The translations under genes were made by a program, and so were the position numbers. The notes under the pieces were generated by a model. That model ran no database searches. It had not been told where the DNA came from and saw only the letters and a list, made by a program, of their open reading frames with translations. From assembly GCA_958296105.1 (NCBI GenBank), contig OY282441.1, forward strand, positions 2,191,800 to 2,255,799: a stretch of 64,000 nt of DNA. The letters are read 5' to 3'. The stretch is from an uncultured Dehalococcoidia bacterium. Its GTDB lineage: Bacteria; Chloroflexota; Dehalococcoidia; Lucifugimonadales; UBA1123. Shown one piece after another: positions 2,678 through 37,435 of the stretch; the stretch's first letter is position 1, and every line of letters starts with the position of its first letter.

Positions 2678-3556
2678 ATGACGACGCTTACAGGCGAGAG
2701 CGGACAGGCGAATAGACTTTCGGCGTTCATGGAGTCGGCGAGGGAGCTTCGGGTTCCATGGACACCGGCCATCGTGATCGTGGTCTTGGTATTCTTGGCG
2801 ATCTTCGCCCCTGTTCTCGCGCCCAATGATCCGAGAGAGACGGACCTGCTCAACGCCAGAACGCCGCCCTTTCAGACCTTGTCCAGCCCATTGGGGACGG
2901 ACTTCGTGGGAAGGGACGTACTCAGCAGGCTGATATACGGCGCGCGCACGTCCGCTTTCATCAGCATGTTCGCGCTCGCCGCCGGCGTCGTCGTGGGAAC
3001 GGTGCTGGGCCTGACCTCAGGCTACGCGGGCAGGTGGGTCGACACCATCATCATGCGGATAGCGGACGCCACGATGGGCTTCCCCTCGATTCTGCTGGCT
3101 ATGATCATAGTGGCGATACTCGGGCAGGGCTTGATGCCCATCATCGTAGCGGTGGCGGTATCCACTTGGCCGCGCATCGCTCGGATGATCCGCGGAGAGG
3201 TGCTGTCCGTCAAAGACCAGGACTTCGTGACCCTCGCCAAGATCGCAGGGGTGTCGCCCGCCGTGATCGTGTGGCGGCACGTGTTCCCGAACGTGCTGAA
3301 CACGCTCATGGTCATAACCAGCCTGTCGGTCGCGGGCGTCATCCTCACCGAGGCGTCGCTCAGCTTCTTGGGGCTTGGCCTCCCGCCGGGCGATCCGGCG
3401 TGGGGAATCATGGTCGCCGAGGGCCGCGTGAGCCTGCTCAAGACGTGGTGGATATCCCTGTTCCCCGGCGTGATCATCACCGTGGTAGTCATGGCGTTCA
3501 ACTTCTTTGGAGACTGGCTGCGCGACTCGCTCGATCCCAAGCTGCGGCGGGTGTAG
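2678..3556 (+). CDS. ABC transporter permease, DppC/OppC type
   Basis: Second permease subunit (292 residues). It has the DppC hallmarks: a short cytoplasmic N-terminus, one helix (about residues 27-48), a periplasmic stretch containing the PLGTDFVGRDVLSRLIYG motif, then five helices with the EAA-like loop, and an ending in DSLDPKLRRV. It lies 156 bp after the DppB-like gene and 23 bp before the first ATPase gene, consistent with one operon. The 2522-2677 gap holds a short GC-rich inverted repeat (about 2533-2562) but no gene. Confidence 0.93.
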   Translation: MTTLTGESGQANRLSAFMESARELRVPWTPAIVIVVLVFLAIFAPVLAPNDPRETDLLNARTPPFQTLSSPLGTDFVGRDVLSRLIYGARTSAFISMFALAAGVVVGTVLGLTSGYAGRWVDTIIMRIADATMGFPSILLAMIIVAILGQGLMPIIVAVAVSTWPRIARMIRGEVLSVKDQDFVTLAKIAGVSPAVIVWRHVFPNVLNTLMVITSLSVAGVILTEASLSFLGLGLPPGDPAWGIMVAEGRVSLLKTWWISLFPGVIITVVVMAFNFFGDWLRDSLDPKLRRV

Positions 3557-3579
3557 CGAGAGGATAACGAGGAATCGAA

Positions 3580-4560
3580 TTGAACCACGACGTTCTTCTG
3601 GAAGTCGAAGACCTGCGCACCCACTTCTTCACCCGAACGGGCGTTGTGAAGGCGGTGGATGGCGTCTCGTTCACACTGGACAGGGGCGAGACTCTGGGCA
3701 TAGTGGGCGAATCGGGGTCTGGCAAGAGCATGACCGCCCTGTCGCTGATGCGCCTGGTGCCCGAACCGGGCGGCAGAATAGTCAGCGGACGCATCATGTT
3801 CGACGGCGAAGACCTGCTGCTCAAAGACTCCAGCGAGATGTCCGTCATCAGGGGGCGCGAGATCTGCATGATCCTCCAGGACCCCATGACCTCGCTCAAC
3901 CCGGTTCTGTCCATCGGAAACCAGCTCATGGAGACGTATCGCTCGGACGAGCGTCACTCCTCCAGAGACCTTTGGGAGCGTGGAGTCGATCTGCTGAGAA
4001 AGGTGCGGATTCCCGCGCCCGAAATCAGGATGCGCGCCTTCCCGCACCAGATGAGCGGCGGGATGCGCCAGCGCGTGGTGGGCGCGATAGCCATTTCGCG
4101 TATGCCCAGCCTGATAATCGCCGACGAGCCGACCACATCGCTGGACGCCACGATACAGCTTCAGTACCTGCGCCTGCTGAAGGACATACAGAAGGAGACT
4201 GGCGCGGCGATCATATTCATCACCCACGACTTCGGAATAGTCGCCAGAATGTGCGACCGCGTGGCAGTGATGTACGCGGGCAGGATAGTCGAGAACGCGG
4301 ACGTGTCGGAGCTGTTCTACAATCCACAGCACCCCTACACTGAGGCGCTGCTGGGATCGGTCCCCGATTTGGAGCAGGACGTGGAGTGGCTGACTTCGAT
4401 AGCCGGACAGCCGCCCAATCTGGACGACATGCCCCCCGGATGCAGCTTCGAGCCGCGCTGCCCGTATGCGTTCGGAAGATGCGTCGAGGAGTACCCGCGC
4501 GAGTTCCTTGTCGCGCAGCGACACCGCGCCAGCTGCTGGAGGCTCGATGACACAGGTTGA
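3580..4560 (+). CDS. ABC transporter ATP-binding protein, DppD/OppD type
   Basis: First of two cytoplasmic ATPases of the peptide-type importer (326 residues). Walker A GESGSGKS lies at residues 43-50; the ABC signature (MSGGMRQRV) and Walker B (SLIIADEPTTSLD) follow, with the switch histidine in FITHDFG. The C-terminus carries the oligopeptide/dipeptide extension, including a CSFEPRCPYAF segment with spaced cysteines. The start is TTG at 3580, supported by a purine-rich site (GAGGA) just upstream and by the family N-terminus. Confidence 0.93.
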   Translation: MNHDVLLEVEDLRTHFFTRTGVVKAVDGVSFTLDRGETLGIVGESGSGKSMTALSLMRLVPEPGGRIVSGRIMFDGEDLLLKDSSEMSVIRGREICMILQDPMTSLNPVLSIGNQLMETYRSDERHSSRDLWERGVDLLRKVRIPAPEIRMRAFPHQMSGGMRQRVVGAIAISRMPSLIIADEPTTSLDATIQLQYLRLLKDIQKETGAAIIFITHDFGIVARMCDRVAVMYAGRIVENADVSELFYNPQHPYTEALLGSVPDLEQDVEWLTSIAGQPPNLDDMPPGCSFEPRCPYAFGRCVEEYPREFLVAQRHRASCWRLDDTG

Positions 4561-5563
4561 GAGACACGAAGAATCGGCTGCCGCCGAGCCGCTGATCGTC
4601 GCCGAGAACGTCAAGAAGCACTTCAGCGTTACGCGCGGGCTGGTGTTCCGACAGACCGTCGGGCAGGTGCGCGCGGTCGATGGAGTCTCGTTCAGCGTCC
4701 CGCAGGGGCAGACGTACAGCCTCGTGGGAGAGTCGGGATGCGGCAAGACCACCACCGCGAAGGTCGTTCTGCTTGTCGAGTCGCTCACGTCCGGCACGCT
4801 GCGCTTCGAGGGGCGCGACGTCAGCGCGTTCACGCCCGACCAGCTGACGGAGTATCGCGCTTCGGTGCAGGCAGTCTTTCAAGACCCTTGGAGCTCTCTC
4901 AACCCGCGCCTCAAAGTGGAGTCGATAATAGCCGAGCCGCTGACGGCGCACCGCCGCCTGACGAAGGCGGAGTTGAGAGAACAGGTGCTGTCGCTGCTGG
5001 AGGAGGTCGGTCTCCACCCCAGCCACGCCTACCGATACCCGCACGAGTTCAGCGGCGGCCAGAGACAGCGGATAGCCATAGCGCGGGCGCTGGCGCTGCG
5101 TCCCAAGCTCATCGTCTTGGATGAGCCGGTCTCGGCGCTGGACGTGTCCATCAGGGCGCAGATTATGAACCTGCTCAAGCAGCTTCAGATAGAATACAAC
5201 CTGAGCTACCTGCTCATCGCGCACCAGCTGGCAACGGTGCGCTACATGAGCCACAAGATCGGGGTGATGTACTTAGGCAAGATCGTCGAAGAGGCGGACT
5301 CCCATGACCTGTTCGACAACCCGCGCCACCCGTACACGCGGGCGCTCATCTCCGCTTCGCTGTCGTCCCGCCCCGGCGTCGAGCGCGAGGAGATCGTGCT
5401 GACAGGAGAGGTTCCCTCCCCGATAGACCCACCGAGCGGGTGCGCGTTCCACCCGCGCTGTCCATCCGTCTTCGAACCCTGCGCAGACGAGACGCCGGTC
5501 ATAGAGTCGATCGCCGAAGGTCACATAGTCTCGTGCCACCTGTACCAGCAGGGCGGCAGATAG
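4547..5563 (+). CDS. ABC transporter ATP-binding protein, DppF/OppF type
   Basis: Second ATPase of the importer (338 residues from this start). Walker A is GESGCGKT, the signature is FSGGQRQRI and Walker B is LIVLDEPVSALD; the C-terminal extension again has a CAFHPRCPSVF-type segment. An in-frame frame extends back to 4466, but ATG 4547 is preferred because GGAGG sits at 4538-4542 and the protein then starts at the normal place. That makes a 14-bp overlap with the DppD-like gene, so translation of the two ATPases is probably coupled. Last gene of the operon; 268 bp without a recognised feature follow. Confidence 0.93.
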   Translation: MTQVERHEESAAAEPLIVAENVKKHFSVTRGLVFRQTVGQVRAVDGVSFSVPQGQTYSLVGESGCGKTTTAKVVLLVESLTSGTLRFEGRDVSAFTPDQLTEYRASVQAVFQDPWSSLNPRLKVESIIAEPLTAHRRLTKAELREQVLSLLEEVGLHPSHAYRYPHEFSGGQRQRIAIARALALRPKLIVLDEPVSALDVSIRAQIMNLLKQLQIEYNLSYLLIAHQLATVRYMSHKIGVMYLGKIVEEADSHDLFDNPRHPYTRALISASLSSRPGVEREEIVLTGEVPSPIDPPSGCAFHPRCPSVFEPCADETPVIESIAEGHIVSCHLYQQGGR

Positions 5564-5831
5564 CCCGCTTTCTCGCCCGCGCCTGTCAGAATGGGCGTGG
5601 TCCAGCCATCGAGCAGAGCGGCATCGCCCCGAAGACGATGGACGAATGCGCCTTCACCCATCGCTCACGGTTCCTTGTCGAGTGTGTCATGTCCAATCCG
5701 CGCTCGCTTTCAGCGTTGCCGTCACGGATATAGACCCTCGCCTTGCGCCGGAACGCGACTGTGGGATGGCGATGATGCCTGACTGGGACGGGTGAGCTTG
5801 CTCCAAGAGAAAGAAGACGCGGAAAAATTGC

Positions 5832-7454
5832 TTACTGCCCACCTCGCACCTTCCTGAGCCGCAGGGCTGTCAGACAGCAAGCCAGCGCGATCAGCGCCCC
5901 GGCCAGTCCGCCGCCGAGCGCTGCCCATACGGGGCTGATCTCCAAGCCGTAGGGTCTTGGAGACTCGGCGCGCGTCTCGGCAGTCTCCGGCGGAATCTGA
6001 AGCGTCTCTAGGAATTCGATCAGCGCGGCTCGATCCTGCTGGGGCAGGGCGGCGAACGAGTCGCGGCTTGGCTGAGCCTCTCCGCCGTGCGCGAGGATGG
6101 CTTCGGATATGAGAGTCGCGCGCCCGTTGTGCAGGAAAGGCGGCTCGCTGGCGAATCCCCACAGCTTGCGCGTCAGCCACTCGTCGGTTGGCACGCCCTC
6201 CTCCTCCAGCGCCTCGTTGTCGAGTACGTCTCCCATCCTGTGCCGCTTGAAGTCGGTGAACACGGGAACCATGATCGCGCCGTCCGCCCCCCTTCTCAGC
6301 CCGCCGTCGTTCAGGCTCGTCAGATCGACGGTGTAGGGGTCGTCCACCTCGAACGCTTGCAGCTTGCCCGCTGGGTTGAACGGGTTAGGCTCGCTGAACA
6401 GCGGCGAGTTCAGGGGCAGCTCCGGGACGTGGCAAGTCGCGCATCCGAGCGATGAGAACAGCGCCTGTCCTCTCTGCGCGGCTTCACGGTTGGCATCGCG
6501 CTGCGGGCGAGCCGCAGCTGGCGCGGGCAGTGTGGCTTGAAACAGCACGAGCGCGGTCACGTCCCCGCGTGAAAGCTCGTCCGCGATGCCGTCTCCGTCT
6601 CGGTCGACCGTATCCCCGAAGCGCTCGGACGCCTGCATCCCGAAGTGCTGGTTCATGGCTTTGACCGCGAACTCCCTGAGCGAGATTATGGTGCCTTTCT
6701 GCATGAACGGACGGATCACGAGATCGGCCTCGATGCCCTCGACCTCGTCGCTGTTCAGCGTGCCGTCGGGGTGAGCCGTGAGCCGCCCGAAGTCTATTCC
6801 CTTCGTGGTCAGCTCGGCTGTCACCGGTGCGCCGCTCTGCCGCGCTTCCCTTCTCGCGCCGTCTCTGATGGCGTGGAGATCCGCAGTCATCTCTCGCGCC
6901 AGAAGCTCGACGTATCCGGATCCGAACAGGCTGACGGAAGTCCTCTCGTTGCCGACTGTCCTGAGAGTGTGGCGTTCGAGACCGTCGCCCTCCCCGCCGT
7001 CGAAGTTCACGAATTCGAGACGGTCTGCCAGCACGAACACGTTTGTGGCGTTGTCGCCCCCGCCGCCGAGACGCGGGATCGTGTGGCAGCTGGAGCATGA
7101 GTTGGCATCAGGCCCCGAGATGCGGTTGAAGTTGTCTGGAAACGTTCGCGGCGCGCGGAAGTTGTTGGGGCTGACATCCGTGGTTTCCGGGCGTCCGGCG
7201 CCGTCCAGCGTGTTGAAAGACGCCGTGAAGAGGCGTTCGCCCCGCGCCAGTATCTGATCGAGCGTGAGAGCGTCGCCGTCTATCTCAGCCTGACTGGTGT
7301 GGATGCCCAGCGCGCCAGCTTCGCCGATGACGTTTCCGGGCGCTGTGCCGTCGCTCGTATCCGCGCAAGCGGCAAAGCCGAGAGCGGCGACGGCGAGCGC
7401 AACGGCGGCGAATGTCCGAGTAATCCCCAGTATCTTGGCAGAGTTCGCCCACAA
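5832..7454 (-). CDS. Di-heme c-type cytochrome oxidoreductase (DUF1111-like), membrane-anchored
   Basis: Exported electron-transfer protein of the di-heme oxidoreductase / cytochrome c peroxidase-like group (540 residues). Two haem c sites are visible: CSSCH at residues 120-124 and CATCH near 337-341. The N-terminus has a hydrophobic signal region ending in GFAAC around residue 30, which could be a lipoprotein site although the lipobox is poor. A second hydrophobic helix at about residues 508-530 followed by basic residues suggests C-terminal membrane anchoring. The start appears to be TTG at 7454. Its redox partner is unknown; nothing nearby suggests one. Confidence 0.85.
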   Translation of the reverse strand: MWANSAKILGITRTFAAVALAVAALGFAACADTSDGTAPGNVIGEAGALGIHTSQAEIDGDALTLDQILARGERLFTASFNTLDGAGRPETTDVSPNNFRAPRTFPDNFNRISGPDANSCSSCHTIPRLGGGGDNATNVFVLADRLEFVNFDGGEGDGLERHTLRTVGNERTSVSLFGSGYVELLAREMTADLHAIRDGARREARQSGAPVTAELTTKGIDFGRLTAHPDGTLNSDEVEGIEADLVIRPFMQKGTIISLREFAVKAMNQHFGMQASERFGDTVDRDGDGIADELSRGDVTALVLFQATLPAPAAARPQRDANREAAQRGQALFSSLGCATCHVPELPLNSPLFSEPNPFNPAGKLQAFEVDDPYTVDLTSLNDGGLRRGADGAIMVPVFTDFKRHRMGDVLDNEALEEEGVPTDEWLTRKLWGFASEPPFLHNGRATLISEAILAHGGEAQPSRDSFAALPQQDRAALIEFLETLQIPPETAETRAESPRPYGLEISPVWAALGGGLAGALIALACCLTALRLRKVRGGQ

Positions 7455-29447: not shown

Positions 29448-30059
29448 TTAGAGCGATTGCAAAAACAGTCGCACGCCGCCGAAAGCGGGATGTTCCAGGT
29501 TCCAGTAGCCGCGCTGCGCTGCGACCCCGACGGATACGTGAGGGTCCGGCCGAGTGGCGATGTAAGCGTGGGCGCGAGACTTTTCGGGACGATGCGGCTC
29601 GGCTCCGGCATGATCCCGAACGCAATCGAAAAAATCGTCTATGCAGCCATCGAGCGGCGCATCCTCGAACGTTCGGCACAGAAGCGTTTCCAGCATCCCG
29701 TCGGATTGGTTGTCCGGCAGTATGAAGACACTGACGGAAGGAACGCCATCCGTTTTGTGTCCGGGACGTTCGGGAACGGGCAGATTGGCGTTGCGCAAAG
29801 AGCCTTGAACGCTCCGAAACGCGCCGTCTGCGGAAGTCTCGGCGTCCCGAACGATGCCGACGCTTTCCACGATCTGATCGAACTCATCCGAGTCGGCGAG
29901 ATTCGATAGAAAGTATCGGAGTTCATCAATGCCCCCGAAGTTCTGAATCTGTACGCCATCCAAGTCGATGTTCCTGAGCATCGCGCCGAAGAAATTGCGC
30001 TGGTCGTTTCCTTCCACGAGCAGTTGTATCGCGTATCTGATCACGTTCGGACTGGGCAA
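29448..30059 (-). CDS. DUF3226-type TOPRIM-fold protein, candidate nuclease partner of the AAA ATPase
   Basis: 203 residues. TOPRIM-like elements are visible: LLVEGNDQ at 13-20 (motif 1 glutamate), an acidic RDAE at 71-74 where the D-x-D/E motif is expected, and the family-typical LPDNQSDGMLE at 114-124. The tail contains KSRAHAYIATRP and AAQRGYWNLEHPAF, which also match DUF3226 proteins as I recall them. The TTG start directly abuts the TAA of the ATPase gene, with GGAG nine bases upstream, so the two are tightly coupled. OLD-family and PARIS-type systems pair an ABC/AAA ATPase with a TOPRIM nuclease; a nuclease role here is inferred. Confidence 0.8.
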   Translation of the reverse strand: MPSPNVIRYAIQLLVEGNDQRNFFGAMLRNIDLDGVQIQNFGGIDELRYFLSNLADSDEFDQIVESVGIVRDAETSADGAFRSVQGSLRNANLPVPERPGHKTDGVPSVSVFILPDNQSDGMLETLLCRTFEDAPLDGCIDDFFDCVRDHAGAEPHRPEKSRAHAYIATRPDPHVSVGVAAQRGYWNLEHPAFGGVRLFLQSL

Positions 30060-31091
30060 TTAGCGAATCTCCATGTAGCGACGAGTCGCAAGCTCCACTT
30101 GGCGCGGCTCGTAACTGACCGCGCCCTTTGCTTTGCTGAGTCGAAAGTAGCGAAAGCCCTCCGGAGTGAGCGCCTTGACCGCCGCCTGAATACACTCGAA
30201 ACTGTGCGTGGTGGCGAATACCTGCGTGTCGAACCGTTCCGCCGCCTGTTCGATTGCTTCCCAAATTTTGACTTGCGCCGAGTAGTGGAGACCGTTCTCG
30301 ATCTCGTCCACGAGGATTGCGCCCCCGGGCGTCGCCGCTATGCCCAAAGCCAGCTTGGCGAGGCGAGTCATCCCCTCGCCCATCGCGTGGAGCGGGATCA
30401 TCTCCGATAAGCCGATGTCGCCCCATATCATTGGCGCTCCCATCGCTATGCTGTCTTCTACGCTTTGCAGCCTGGGCTCCATGATCCGCAGCGTTTGCAG
30501 CAGCGCGCTGTCCGCCTTGCGGGTTCTGAACTTTGCGAGAAGGGCGGCGTACTCATGATCATTTCCGGAACGCGCCAAGATGATTCTGGCGTCGAACGGG
30601 ATGCGGGTTTCGGGTCCCTCCATGCTGATTCCCTGCGGAGTCAAGCGGATATGGCTGAGAAGCTCCGGGATCGAGCCGTCGGAGTACGTGAACGCCAGAG
30701 AGCGCCCATCGGGAACGTCGGACGCGGCCGCTTCTCGCGCTCTGTTCAATGGAAGCAGAGTAGTGGCGGAGCGCTCGGTCGCTATGGTTAGCTTGATTGG
30801 TTCGGAATCGGTTTGGCGAGCTTCGATCTCGATGGCGCGGCTCATATCCAGTCCGAAGAACATGTGCTTCCACGCGATTTCGGACGAAAACCCGCTCGCG
30901 CCGTCGCCTCTAATCACGTTGGCGTTGATTGCGAACTGCGGATTGCCGCCGCCGGCCAGCAGGAAGATCGCTTCCAGCAGGGCGGTCTTGCCTGAGTTGT
31001 TTCCCCCCGCTATCAGGTTGATGCGATGCAGTCCGTCTATCTCCATGTCCTCGAAGACGCGGTAGTTGCGGATCCTCAAACTCTTCAGCAT
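30060..31091 (-). CDS. AAA/ABC-class ATPase (AAA_15/21, OLD- or RecF-like)
   Basis: 343 residues. N-terminal LRIRNYRVFEDMEIDGLHRINLIAGGNNSGKT places Walker A at 29-36, in the style of SMC/RecF/OLD ATPases. Walker B is GAILVDEIENGLHYS (about 255-270), and the switch histidine is in VFATTHSFECI (about 287-297). Between them lies an insertion of about 180 residues without clear coiled coil. Gap of 9 bp after the ADP-ribosylglycohydrolase gene and none before the TOPRIM gene. Likely an ATP-driven sensor or clamp for the TOPRIM partner; molecular target unknown. Confidence 0.9.
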   Translation of the reverse strand: MLKSLRIRNYRVFEDMEIDGLHRINLIAGGNNSGKTALLEAIFLLAGGGNPQFAINANVIRGDGASGFSSEIAWKHMFFGLDMSRAIEIEARQTDSEPIKLTIATERSATTLLPLNRAREAAASDVPDGRSLAFTYSDGSIPELLSHIRLTPQGISMEGPETRIPFDARIILARSGNDHEYAALLAKFRTRKADSALLQTLRIMEPRLQSVEDSIAMGAPMIWGDIGLSEMIPLHAMGEGMTRLAKLALGIAATPGGAILVDEIENGLHYSAQVKIWEAIEQAAERFDTQVFATTHSFECIQAAVKALTPEGFRYFRLSKAKGAVSYEPRQVELATRRYMEIR

Positions 31092-31100
31092 TGCAAGCCC

Positions 31101-32153
31101 CTATGCGCCCCTGTGCGACTGCGTAGGTTCGCTCATCGAAGCCAGCGCGTCCGCCAGCGCCTCGATGCGCGGACGCTCGGGGATGCAGCTCAGCCAGCTC
31201 GCCGGTATGGCGCCTGCGCCGTAGCGCGCGCCCAGAACCGCGCCCGCTACGGCGGCGTTCGTGTCCGTGTCTCCGCCGCCAGCCACTAGATCCACCAGCG
31301 CTTCGTCCAAGCTCAGCGGAGTCGCCGCCGCCCATAGACCTGCCTGCGCAGCCAGTAGCGTATGGCCGATGAGATGCTGGTCTTGCCGCAGCCACGAGGC
31401 ATCGCGCGGCGGGCTTTCGCCGGCGGCTATGGCATCGAACACCTCCGAGGGGATGCCGTCGGCGTGAGCTTTCGCCCTCAAGTCCGGCGCGCCATCCGCG
31501 CGCGCTGCGGCGAGTATGGCGGTCGAGTCGGCTTCCTCCCCGCTCAGCAGCAGCGCGATTACTGCGTTGATGACGATGCACGACCACTGACAGATGGGCG
31601 CGTAGTGAGTTACGGCGCATGTAGCGGCGGAGTCGCCAATCAGCCGTTCCGGGCTGCGTCGGCGGGCAGCGCCTACGGGAGCGCAGCGCATCACCCCCCC
31701 ATTGGGCGCGATGCGTCTGTGTTCGTAGACAATGCGAGCGGGTTCAGGGTATGGCATTCCCTCTTCTATCAGGCTGATGACGCTGTAGGTGGTGGAGCCG
31801 CAGCCACGCCCGTTTTCACGCAGCCACGCCACCAGACGATTGGAGAAATCGGAGACATAGTCGCCGCCGCGCGCGAGCGCCTCGCCCAGCTCGACCGCCT
31901 GCGCCAGATCGTCGTCCATGGGGCTGCGCGCCTCGCGCGGGTCGGGATCGGACAGACCGTTGGGATACCAGTATGCGATGTCGTGGTGCGATGCGCCTTC
32001 CACTGGCAGCCCCAGCAGGTTGCCCACAGCCAAACCGAGCATTGCGCCGCGAGCGCGGTCGAGCAGAGTCTCGGCGGAGACCGACGCTTCGGCGGATTCG
32101 GACAGCAGCGCGGCAGTATGGGGAGCGTGGGAGACGATGTTGGGATCGGACAT
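31101..32153 (-). CDS. ADP-ribosylglycohydrolase family protein
   Basis: 350 residues from the ATG at 32153, which has AGGGAG upstream (a longer frame to 32534 is not supported). Expected to cleave ADP-ribose from proteins, nucleic acids or small molecules with two Mg ions. Motifs: GAMLGLAVGNLLGLPVEG (37-53), the acidic DDD at 80-82, NGGVMRCAPVG, and GGDTDT at 293-298, all the metal-binding signatures of the ARH/DraG family. It leads a three-gene set with the AAA ATPase and TOPRIM protein. Confidence 0.92.
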   Translation of the reverse strand: MSDPNIVSHAPHTAALLSESAEASVSAETLLDRARGAMLGLAVGNLLGLPVEGASHHDIAYWYPNGLSDPDPREARSPMDDDLAQAVELGEALARGGDYVSDFSNRLVAWLRENGRGCGSTTYSVISLIEEGMPYPEPARIVYEHRRIAPNGGVMRCAPVGAARRRSPERLIGDSAATCAVTHYAPICQWSCIVINAVIALLLSGEEADSTAILAAARADGAPDLRAKAHADGIPSEVFDAIAAGESPPRDASWLRQDQHLIGHTLLAAQAGLWAAATPLSLDEALVDLVAGGGDTDTNAAVAGAVLGARYGAGAIPASWLSCIPERPRIEALADALASMSEPTQSHRGA

Positions 32154-32263
32154 GATACGATCTCCCTTCGAGATATGCGCCGAGCGCAAAGACAGCGGCA
32201 GGCAGTCGCTCGACCGCCTGCCGCAAATGGTTATCGGGCTCGATATCGTGAGCCCGAAGCGGG

Positions 32264-34487: not shown

Positions 34488-35894
34488 CTATTCGAACTGG
34501 TAATCGACCGTTGACGCGGTCATCTGAAGCAGGTTGTGGACGCCCACCGGAGCGCCCTCTTCGCCGCCGCCCATGCCGCGAAGCTCGCTGGCGTATCTCA
34601 CCAGCGAATCGTAAGTGTTCTCGCTGACCGTTATGCCGCCCAGCAGGTCGAGACAGCGGTCTACCAGCTGCGCGGGGTCGCCATCGAGGCTTCCCGCTCG
34701 CTCCACCATCTCCCTGACGCCGGGCTTGGAGAGGTCTTCGAACTGGCTCTCCACGAATCCGATTCGCTCGCTCAGCGTCCCCGAGTCTATCCACTCGTGG
34801 CCCGTGTGCCACCCTTCGACTGTCGGAGGGTTCATCAGCCGCTGACCCATGATCGCCAGCGGCCCCTCCACCAGCGAGCCGTTGAGCGTCGTAATTGCGA
34901 ACTGGTGGATCCCCGGAGTTGGGCTGCTGAACTCGCCCGTTTGTCGGATCACTCCCACCACCAGCTCTGTCGGACTCTTGACCTTCTTGAGGTCCCGCGC
35001 CTGCTTGAAGAAGTCGGAGTTGAACAGCGTCCTCAGCACCGGGCGCATCTGCCCGCCCGACTCCAGGAACACATCCGACAGCTCTCGGATAGCGTCTTCG
35101 TTCCTGGGCGGCTCGGTGTTCCACGATGGCACCTGCACCTCGTCCTCCACGAAGAAGTTGTACAGGTGGCGCGATATGAAGCGCGCGGTGGCGGGCTGGC
35201 GAACGATGATGTCTATGATGTCGCCGCCGTCGAAGTTGCCGGTATGGCCGAGGAAGGTCTTTTCGCCGTGGTCGTGGTCGTCCTCGATGAACTCGAACTC
35301 CGCCGGGTAGTGGCCGTTCGGGTAGAGCGACAGCGGCTGGCGGAACGTCCAGCCCGTGAACGCGCGAGACGCCGCCTTGATGTCGTCCTCGGTGTAGTTG
35401 CCCACGCCCATAGAGAACAGCTCCAGAAGCTCCCTGCCGTAGTTCTCGTTGATCTCGTCCTTGTGGTTCTCGTTGTTGTCCAGCCAGAAGATCATGGCGG
35501 GGTCGCGCGACAGCTCCAGCAGTATAGCGCGCATGTCGGTCATGCCAACACGTCGGAACATGTCTATCTGAGTGTACAGCGAGTGGCCATGCTCGCTCTT
35601 GCCCCAAGCTACGGGGAAGATGTGGTGCAGGAAGAGCGACATCTTCTCCTCCAGCGGCCTCGGCGTGTTGGCCATACGGTACAGCCACTTGCCCACGTGA
35701 ACCGCCACCGGCTCGCCGCCGTAGTAGCGCTCGATGTAAGAGGTGTCCAGCGCCTCGAAACGATCCGGGTCGACCAGATCGTCCACGATCTCCTCGTAGG
35801 TCTTTTCCATCGTCAGCTTGTCCAGCTCCGACGGCGTTGCGCCGAAGCCCGCTCGTCTCATCAGGTGCGCTACAAGCGCGCGATCCGACTTCAT
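34488..35894 (-). CDS. DUF1800 family protein, copy 1
   Basis: 468 residues, starting MKSDRALVAHLMRRAGFGATP, the characteristic DUF1800 opening. Other conserved parts are EEKMSLFLHHIFPV, NENYGRELLELFSMG, AFTGWTFR, ARFISRHLYNFFV, and a C-terminal PPTVEGWHTGHEWID. No signal peptide. Function is unknown for the family; the constant pairing with DUF1501 suggests a shared complex. Its neighbour at 36038-37435 is a close paralogue, and a TATAAT-like box (minus strand, 35975-35980) sits upstream. Confidence 0.92.
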   Translation of the reverse strand: MKSDRALVAHLMRRAGFGATPSELDKLTMEKTYEEIVDDLVDPDRFEALDTSYIERYYGGEPVAVHVGKWLYRMANTPRPLEEKMSLFLHHIFPVAWGKSEHGHSLYTQIDMFRRVGMTDMRAILLELSRDPAMIFWLDNNENHKDEINENYGRELLELFSMGVGNYTEDDIKAASRAFTGWTFRQPLSLYPNGHYPAEFEFIEDDHDHGEKTFLGHTGNFDGGDIIDIIVRQPATARFISRHLYNFFVEDEVQVPSWNTEPPRNEDAIRELSDVFLESGGQMRPVLRTLFNSDFFKQARDLKKVKSPTELVVGVIRQTGEFSSPTPGIHQFAITTLNGSLVEGPLAIMGQRLMNPPTVEGWHTGHEWIDSGTLSERIGFVESQFEDLSKPGVREMVERAGSLDGDPAQLVDRCLDLLGGITVSENTYDSLVRYASELRGMGGGEEGAPVGVHNLLQMTASTVDYQFE

Positions 35895-36037: not shown

Positions 36038-37435
36038 TTATTCGAACTGGTAGTCCACGGTGGACGCGGTCATCTGGAGCAGATTGTGAACCCCCGCCGA
36101 TTCGCCGGACTTCATGCTGGCCAGCCCTCTGGCGTATTCGACCAGCGAATCGTAGGTGTGGCGGCTCACCCTGACGCCGCCAAGCAGATCGAGGCAGCGG
36201 CTTACCAGATGCGCGGGATCGTCGTGGAGGCTTCCCACTCGCTCCACCATCTCCCTCACGCCGGGCTTGGAGACGTCCTCGAACTGGCTCTCCACGAACC
36301 TGATGCGCTCGCTGAGGGTGCCGGAGTCTATCCACTCGCGGCCCGTGTGCCAGCCCTCCACCGTCGGAGGGTTCAGCAGCTTCTGTCCCATCACCGCCAT
36401 CGTACTCTCGACCTCGGAGTCGTCCAGCGTGGTCAGCGCGAACTGGTAGATCCCCGGAGTCGGGCTGTTGAACTCCCCCGTCTGGCGCACCACGCCCACG
36501 ACCAGCTCGGTCGGGCTTTTGACCTTCTTGAAGTCGGCCGCCTGCTTGAAGAAGTCGGAGTTGAACATCTCCCGCAGAACCGGCCGCATCTGGCCGCCGG
36601 TCTCCGTGAACACGCTGGCCATCTTCTCGATAGCCGCCGCGTTCCTGGGCGGCTCGGTGTTCCACGATGGCACCTGCGCCTCGTCCTCCACGAAGAAGTT
36701 GTACAGATGGCGCGAGATGAACCTCGCGGTGGCGGGCTGCCGCGCGATGATGTCTATGATGTCGCCGCCGTCGAACGTCCCCGTTTCGCCGAGGAATATC
36801 TTCTCCCCGTAGTCGTGGTCGTCCGCTAGGAACTCGAACTCCGTCGGGTAGTTTCCGCTGGGGTACAGCGAAAGCGGCTGACGGAACGTCCAGCCCGTGA
36901 ACGCGCGCGACGCCGCCTTGATGTCGTCTTCCGTGTAGTTGCCCACGCCCAGCGAGAACAGCTCCAGAAGCTCCCTGCCGTAGTTCTCGTTGATCTCGTC
37001 CTTGTGGTTCTCGTTGTTGTCCAGCCAGAAGATCATTGCCGGATCGTGGGACAGCTCCAGCAGGATGGTTCGTATGTCCGTCAGCCCGATCCTGCGAAAC
37101 ATGTCGATCTCGTTGTAGATCGAAGGGTTATGCTCGCCCTTCCCCCATGCCACCGGGAAGACGTGGTGCAGGAAGAGCGACATCTTCTCCTCCAGCGGGC
37201 GCTGGGTGTTGGCCATACGGTACAGCCACTTGCCCACGTGAACCGCCACCTGCTCGCCGCCGTAGTACCTGTCGATGAACGACTGATCCAGCGCGGGGAA
37301 GCGCTCGGGGGTCACCAAGTCTTCGACTATCTCCTCGTAGGTCTTTTCCATCGTCAGCTTGTCCAGCTCCGACGGCGTCGCGCCGAAGCCCGCTCGTCTC
37401 ATCAGGTGCGCGACAAGCGCGCGCTCAGATTTCAT
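36038..37435 (-). CDS. DUF1800 family protein, copy 2
   Basis: 465 residues, aligned along its whole length with the copy at 34488-35894, with long identical runs (for example from residue 5 to 35 and around NENYGRELLELFS) and few gaps. Differences are concentrated in short variable segments such as residues 40-60 and the C-terminal SGESAGVHNL area, which lacks the GGGEEGAP insert of copy 1. No second DUF1501 gene accompanies it, so it either shares the DUF1501 product or has diverged. Confidence 0.92.
   Translation of the reverse strand: MKSERALVAHLMRRAGFGATPSELDKLTMEKTYEEIVEDLVTPERFPALDQSFIDRYYGGEQVAVHVGKWLYRMANTQRPLEEKMSLFLHHVFPVAWGKGEHNPSIYNEIDMFRRIGLTDIRTILLELSHDPAMIFWLDNNENHKDEINENYGRELLELFSLGVGNYTEDDIKAASRAFTGWTFRQPLSLYPSGNYPTEFEFLADDHDYGEKIFLGETGTFDGGDIIDIIARQPATARFISRHLYNFFVEDEAQVPSWNTEPPRNAAAIEKMASVFTETGGQMRPVLREMFNSDFFKQAADFKKVKSPTELVVGVVRQTGEFNSPTPGIYQFALTTLDDSEVESTMAVMGQKLLNPPTVEGWHTGREWIDSGTLSERIRFVESQFEDVSKPGVREMVERVGSLHDDPAHLVSRCLDLLGGVRVSRHTYDSLVEYARGLASMKSGESAGVHNLLQMTASTVDYQFE

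Follow-up and report, generated by a model that had tools for sequence, protein, structure and literature searches.

Genes at the locus

Three minus-strand genes were found in the window (the whole 64,000-nucleotide stretch of DNA analyzed here) with the coordinates and spacing given in an earlier note, as checked against the open reading frame list and the sequence. The families named there, ADP-ribosylglycohydrolase, ATPase, and DUF3226, were confirmed using Pfam. The features are as follows.

31101..32153, minus strand: gene 1, ADP-ribosylglycohydrolase, 350 aa; PF03747; DraG/ARH-like subfamily with GNLLG and MDDD motifs
30060..31091, minus strand: gene 2, ABC/AAA ATPase, 343 aa; PF13175/PF13304; AbiLi and PDC-M38A profiles; SMC/Rad50/OLD-like head
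29448..30059, minus strand: gene 3, DUF3226 protein, TOPRIM by fold model, 203 aa; TTG start; PF11536; PDC-M38B
32195..32224, minus strand: terminator-like hairpin behind the NHL-repeat gene; conserved in three congeneric genomes

Genes 1 and 2 are separated by 9 bp, and genes 2 and 3 abut, with TAA followed by TTG. The Pfam matches were all far over the cut-off, namely ADP_ribosyl_GH PF03747 for gene 1 (E=6e-53; 181 bits against a curated cut-off of 26.2), AAA_15/AAA_21 for gene 2 (E=2e-21 and 6e-21), and DUF3226 PF11536 for gene 3 (E=2e-25). Shine-Dalgarno-like sequences were found for gene 1 (AAGGGAG), gene 2 (AGGGG), and gene 3 (TGGAG). A longer alternative frame with a GTG start exists for gene 1; the ATG at 32153 was favoured because AAGGGAG precedes it and because orthologues share that start. 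A sigma-70 promoter scan, which is uninformative for this organism, found no promoter in the region. The surroundings in the window comprise CoA-transferases, an NHL-repeat protein, and an epoxide hydrolase, and the locus is outside any defence island. By reading, two further genes of the window (34488-35894 and 36038-37435) are closely similar neighbours that both start MKS(D/E)RALVAHLMRRAGFGATPSELDKL; a DUF1800-like gene has apparently been duplicated here in tandem and recently.

Insertion site

The NHL-repeat and CoA-transferase genes adjoin in three congeneric genomes (74-82% and 78-81% identical, respectively). They are 2837 bp apart in the window, compared with 118 and 123 bp in two of the congeners and ~757 bp in the third (locus L102, G001:C12), where a HepT-like gene lies inside. 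The three-gene block was absent from the site in 3/3 congeneric genomes, two sites being empty and one carrying the HepT-like gene. The L102 insert lies between a CoA-transferase gene (2959-4215) and an NHL gene (4973-5986) on the minus strand, and its HepT-like RNase gene matches PF01934 at 1.4e-23. By eye, the frame that precedes this gene resembles the MNT partner and is apparently interrupted. The hairpin behind the NHL gene is strong in 4/4 genomes (z -3.7 to -6.2), and the inserts start just downstream of it. Sites that are empty or alternatively filled behind a conserved hairpin indicate a small recurrent insertion site. Arrival of the glycohydrolase and the other two genes in one event and arrival in two events both fit the data.

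The ATPase-DUF3226 pair

Homologues of the ATPase were collected by scanning ~85,000 species and keeping loci over 100 bits (n=41). A TOPRIM/DUF3226 gene was directly adjacent or fused in 36 of these 41 loci, which come from across bacteria, and a TOPRIM gene stood next to the ATPase in 26 of 28 loci from the phylum. The fused form, a single ATPase-TOPRIM/DUF3226 protein with an OLD-like layout, was found in Thermoguttaceae (L134:4423-6228). The closest relatives of the ATPase and TOPRIM proteins, at 44-55% identity, were found in Latescibacterota, Defluviicoccus, and Acidobacteria. Among viral contigs, 31 carried the ATPase family, 13 of them with an adjacent TOPRIM gene; GenBank phages had no copies at 1e-10. 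Judged by sequence, the ATPase and DUF3226 genes are a conserved, self-contained, and widespread two-gene module.

The source genome has three ATPase-DUF3226 pairs in all, the one in the window and two more, which by reading lie by dprA/topA and by a dtd-like gene. Recent duplication of the three pairs was not supported, the other ATPases being only 26-33% identical to that of the window. Also by reading, a serine-recombinase-like gene lies ~1.3 kb from another pair of the same genome (L004:3625-4983). Within the class, the DUF3226 profile was over the cut-off in 10/294 genomes, a patchy distribution. ATPase-DUF3226 pairs are carried on enterobacterial plasmids, where RefSeq names the products "ATP-binding protein" and "DUF3226 domain-containing protein". 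An ATPase of the window family was present in ~136 Klebsiella plasmid records of small ColRNAI-type plasmids (~3.8-4.7 kb), and the one plasmid inspected, of 4.7 kb (L282, NZ_CP082125.1), has the pair as most of its cargo.

Predicted structures and active sites

The ATPase has a Walker A motif GGNNSGKT, a Walker B motif LVDEIENG, and an H-loop ATTHS, and its model is an SMC/Rad50-type head. In structural comparison, Rad50/SMC heads (Z 17-19) were as close to it as PtuA, GajA, and AriA (Z ~17.5-18); for AriA (structure 8v46), the values were Z 17.6, rmsd 4.1, and 256 aligned residues.

When solved structures were searched by sequence with the TOPRIM protein, 2p62 was the sole match and a weak one; fold comparison was needed. 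The AlphaFold model (pLDDT 95.6) matched the DUF3226-like protein PH0156/2p62 best (Z 13.6, rmsd 3.1, 187 aligned). Next came Burkholderia OLD (Z 10.3) and Xanthomonas OLD (Z 10.0), in both cases the TOPRIM region and with rmsd ~5. Matches to C-terminal TOPRIM regions of OLD proteins overall had Z 9.0-10.3 and rmsd 4.5-5.2, and T7 primase gave Z 8.6. AriB was absent among the structural matches listed for the model, which excludes nothing. The modelled structure thus supports a TOPRIM fold for DUF3226.

In alignments with relatives, three residues were invariant: the Toprim glutamate E16, D72 as the first of the DxD acids, and another glutamate, E124. The key acidic TOPRIM residues, the loss of which would count against the nuclease role proposed in the earlier note, are thus kept across homologues. 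At the second DxD acid (position 74), relatives have Asp, Glu, or Asn, and the window protein has Glu instead of Asp, as do half of the near relatives. In Bp OLD, the two metals are bound by the equivalent Toprim Glu and DxD acids together with extra acids (PMC6755086). E124 may be the counterpart of the extra metal-binding acid of Bp OLD. The DUF3226 protein is a putative nuclease effector.

Comparison with known and candidate defence systems

In searches with PADLOC profiles, the window ATPase matched AbiLi along its full length (1.7e-53), PDC-M38A (3.8e-53), and then AriA (1.3e-24). The TOPRIM protein matched PDC-M38B only (E 3e-10, judged by E-value). Among relatives, 22/22 ATPases matched both PDC-M38A and AbiLi (E <1e-20), and 17/18 TOPRIM proteins matched PDC-M38B. 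Both window genes thus match PDC-M38 (M38A ATPase plus M38B TOPRIM), and the gene content is otherwise the same save for the upstream glycohydrolase. PDC systems in PADLOC are unpublished candidates (PMC11811056).

AbiL, listed as an ATPase-Toprim defence system (PMC12409363), is near in its ATPase; as to its partner, the window TOPRIM protein had no AbiLii match at E 0.1, and 1 of 18 relatives had a weak one (3e-5). PARIS likewise has separate ATPase and TOPRIM genes, and the window ATPase matches AriA; however, the window ATPase is nearer AbiLi/M38A, and its partner is a TOPRIM protein of the DUF3226 type that gave no AriB match at E 0.1 (3/18 relatives weak). OLD and Gabija GajA share the SMC-like ATPase and a TOPRIM with two-metal acids, but there the two are on one polypeptide, whereas they are separate genes in the window, and no GajB-type helicase adjoins the window pair.

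By profile matches, the pair corresponds to the PADLOC candidate PDC-M38, near AbiL, and is of a kind already known as a candidate. The statement in the earlier note that no named system is known with this combination therefore needs amending for the ATPase and DUF3226 genes; its proposal that these two belong together in the manner of OLD and PARIS agrees with the pairing counts, the PADLOC profiles, and the folds. This gives a place to DUF3226, a domain of unknown function that none of the open-access papers searched mentions: it is the TOPRIM partner in a two-gene module that is widespread.

Proposed function of the pair

AriA senses phage proteins and then frees AriB, a TOPRIM tRNase (PMC12409363), and OLD and GajA, which act in defence, combine an ATPase with a TOPRIM nuclease (PMC10568477). 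By analogy, the most likely role of the pair is abortive antiphage defence, in which the ATPase would be the sensor or regulator and the TOPRIM protein the effector, a nuclease. In the mechanism that we infer, with its sensing, nuclease activity, defence, and co-transcription, the ATPase would sense infection and restrain or license the TOPRIM protein, as in PARIS, OLD, and Gabija; the TOPRIM protein would cut nucleic acid (DNA or tRNA), and cell arrest or death would stop phage growth. The glycohydrolase would be a separate chromosomal gene upstream of the pair, perhaps co-transcribed with it but not its functional partner.

A role in DNA repair, as a RecF/RecR- or Rad50-like module, would be consistent with an ATPase fold as near to Rad50/SMC heads as to PtuA, GajA, and AriA and with the occurrence of the TOPRIM fold in primases too. 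It is nevertheless improbable given the patchy distribution, the plasmid copies, the three divergent copies in one genome, and top profile matches that are defence candidates; a mobile module, for defence or of a toxin-antitoxin-like kind, agrees better than repair with plasmid-borne pairs and patchy distribution. The pair might instead serve mainly as a toxin-antitoxin module or for plasmid/element maintenance, defence being a by-product, a reading to which we give a minor but real chance. Many small non-mobilizable plasmids carry the pair, and the sister genome has its HepT-like gene at the same chromosomal site. This reading overlaps with abortive defence, however, and the related AriA-AriB combines a toxin-antitoxin-like character with phage-triggered defence (PMC12409363). 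Since pairs also occur on plasmids of enterobacteria that are tractable in the laboratory, this PDC-M38/AbiL-like module is straightforward to test.

Relation of the glycohydrolase to the pair

Gene 1 is of the same fold family as DraG, ARH3, and Tri1, and shares with them the conserved Asp pair, the GGDTDT motif of DraG/ARH enzymes, and the Glu in PVEG. D81, D82, D295, and D297 (the metal-binding Asp pair and the C-terminal D-x-D) are invariant. It differs from these enzymes in having GN for GD and MDDD for TDDT, with Met replacing Thr, and these subfamily marks are common to the four closest sequences. The nearest relative is 62% identical and from the same order.

The earlier note took the three genes as almost certainly one unit and offered as one idea a surveillance system in which ADP-ribosylation is the trigger, the toxin, or the antidote. 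In a three-gene defence system of this kind, the ATPase-TOPRIM pair would be modulated by the glycohydrolase as a third component. One strand, the 9-bp gap, and joint absence from three congeneric genomes speak for this. Co-occurrence of the three families in other genomes, which the note proposed to search for, was checked from both sides. No glycohydrolase was found within ~6 kb of the ATPase in the ~85,000-species scan (0/41), within 1.5-kb flanks at the ATPase loci of the phylum (0/28), with the ATPase family in viral contigs (0/31), or beside 12 further pairs from the order and class (0/12). The total is 0 of ~110 homologous ATPase loci, a number that counts loci, not independent events, in sets that partly overlap. 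The two other pairs of the source genome have no glycohydrolase either, the gene in the window being the sole ADP_ribosyl_GH gene of that genome.

From the other side, neither an ATPase nor a TOPRIM gene was nearby in any of the 23 loci of close glycohydrolase orthologues (20 fetched, plus L067, L119, and L120), 13 of which had a metH-like neighbour and 13 a pepN-like neighbour. The pair was also absent from the more distant glycohydrolase loci examined and from 38 viral contigs with distant glycohydrolases. A weak ATPase-profile match (20 bits) 6 kb from the distant glycohydrolase at L122 was taken as a generic ABC ATPase. The GC content is 67.4% for the glycohydrolase, 59.6% for the ATPase, and 57.8% for the TOPRIM gene, with the neighbours in between (62-66%).

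The joint three-gene system was rejected on gene neighbourhoods, and neither the single unit nor the third component was upheld, as the pair occurs without the glycohydrolase everywhere else and the orthologues occur without the pair. Homologues of the pair that usually lack the glycohydrolase are what the earlier note had named as making a joint system unlikely. Same-genome pairs, the loci of other genomes, orthologue neighbourhoods, and composition and descent all place the glycohydrolase outside the system. Differing compositions, the housekeeping genes that adjoin the orthologues, and the fact that no ADP-ribosyltransferase was seen among the genes of the block also count against a three-gene system, which we consider very unlikely. 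Equally slim is the chance of a species-specific recruitment in which the glycohydrolase is a co-transcribed regulator of the pair that, for example, de-ADP-ribosylates the ATPase, so that ADP-ribosylation gates defence.

The three-gene "system" amounts to genes that have come to lie side by side locally, at the insertion site, and the combination is almost certainly a coincidence of position. A false three-gene system is thereby removed, and the case illustrates that a common insertion site can give unrelated genes an operon-like look. Gene 1 most likely encodes an ordinary de-ADP-ribosylase of the chromosome and either hitchhiked or was inserted separately. With good confidence, the locus as a whole can be read as a two-gene ATPase-TOPRIM defence module beside an unrelated glycohydrolase at a recurrent insertion site. 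Against this reading, the locus is outside a defence island, PDC-M38 is itself a candidate, the second DxD acid of the window TOPRIM protein is Glu, and a single joint insertion would also be consistent with the 9-bp gap and with the joint absence from sister genomes.

Elsewhere, the glycohydrolase subfamily was found fused behind a protein-kinase-like domain in proteins of ~820-880 aa with NUDIX-type genes nearby, on the minus strand at L367:1983-4613 and L371:6031-8481 and also at L368 and L369. These fusions are possibly signalling enzymes for ADP-ribose.
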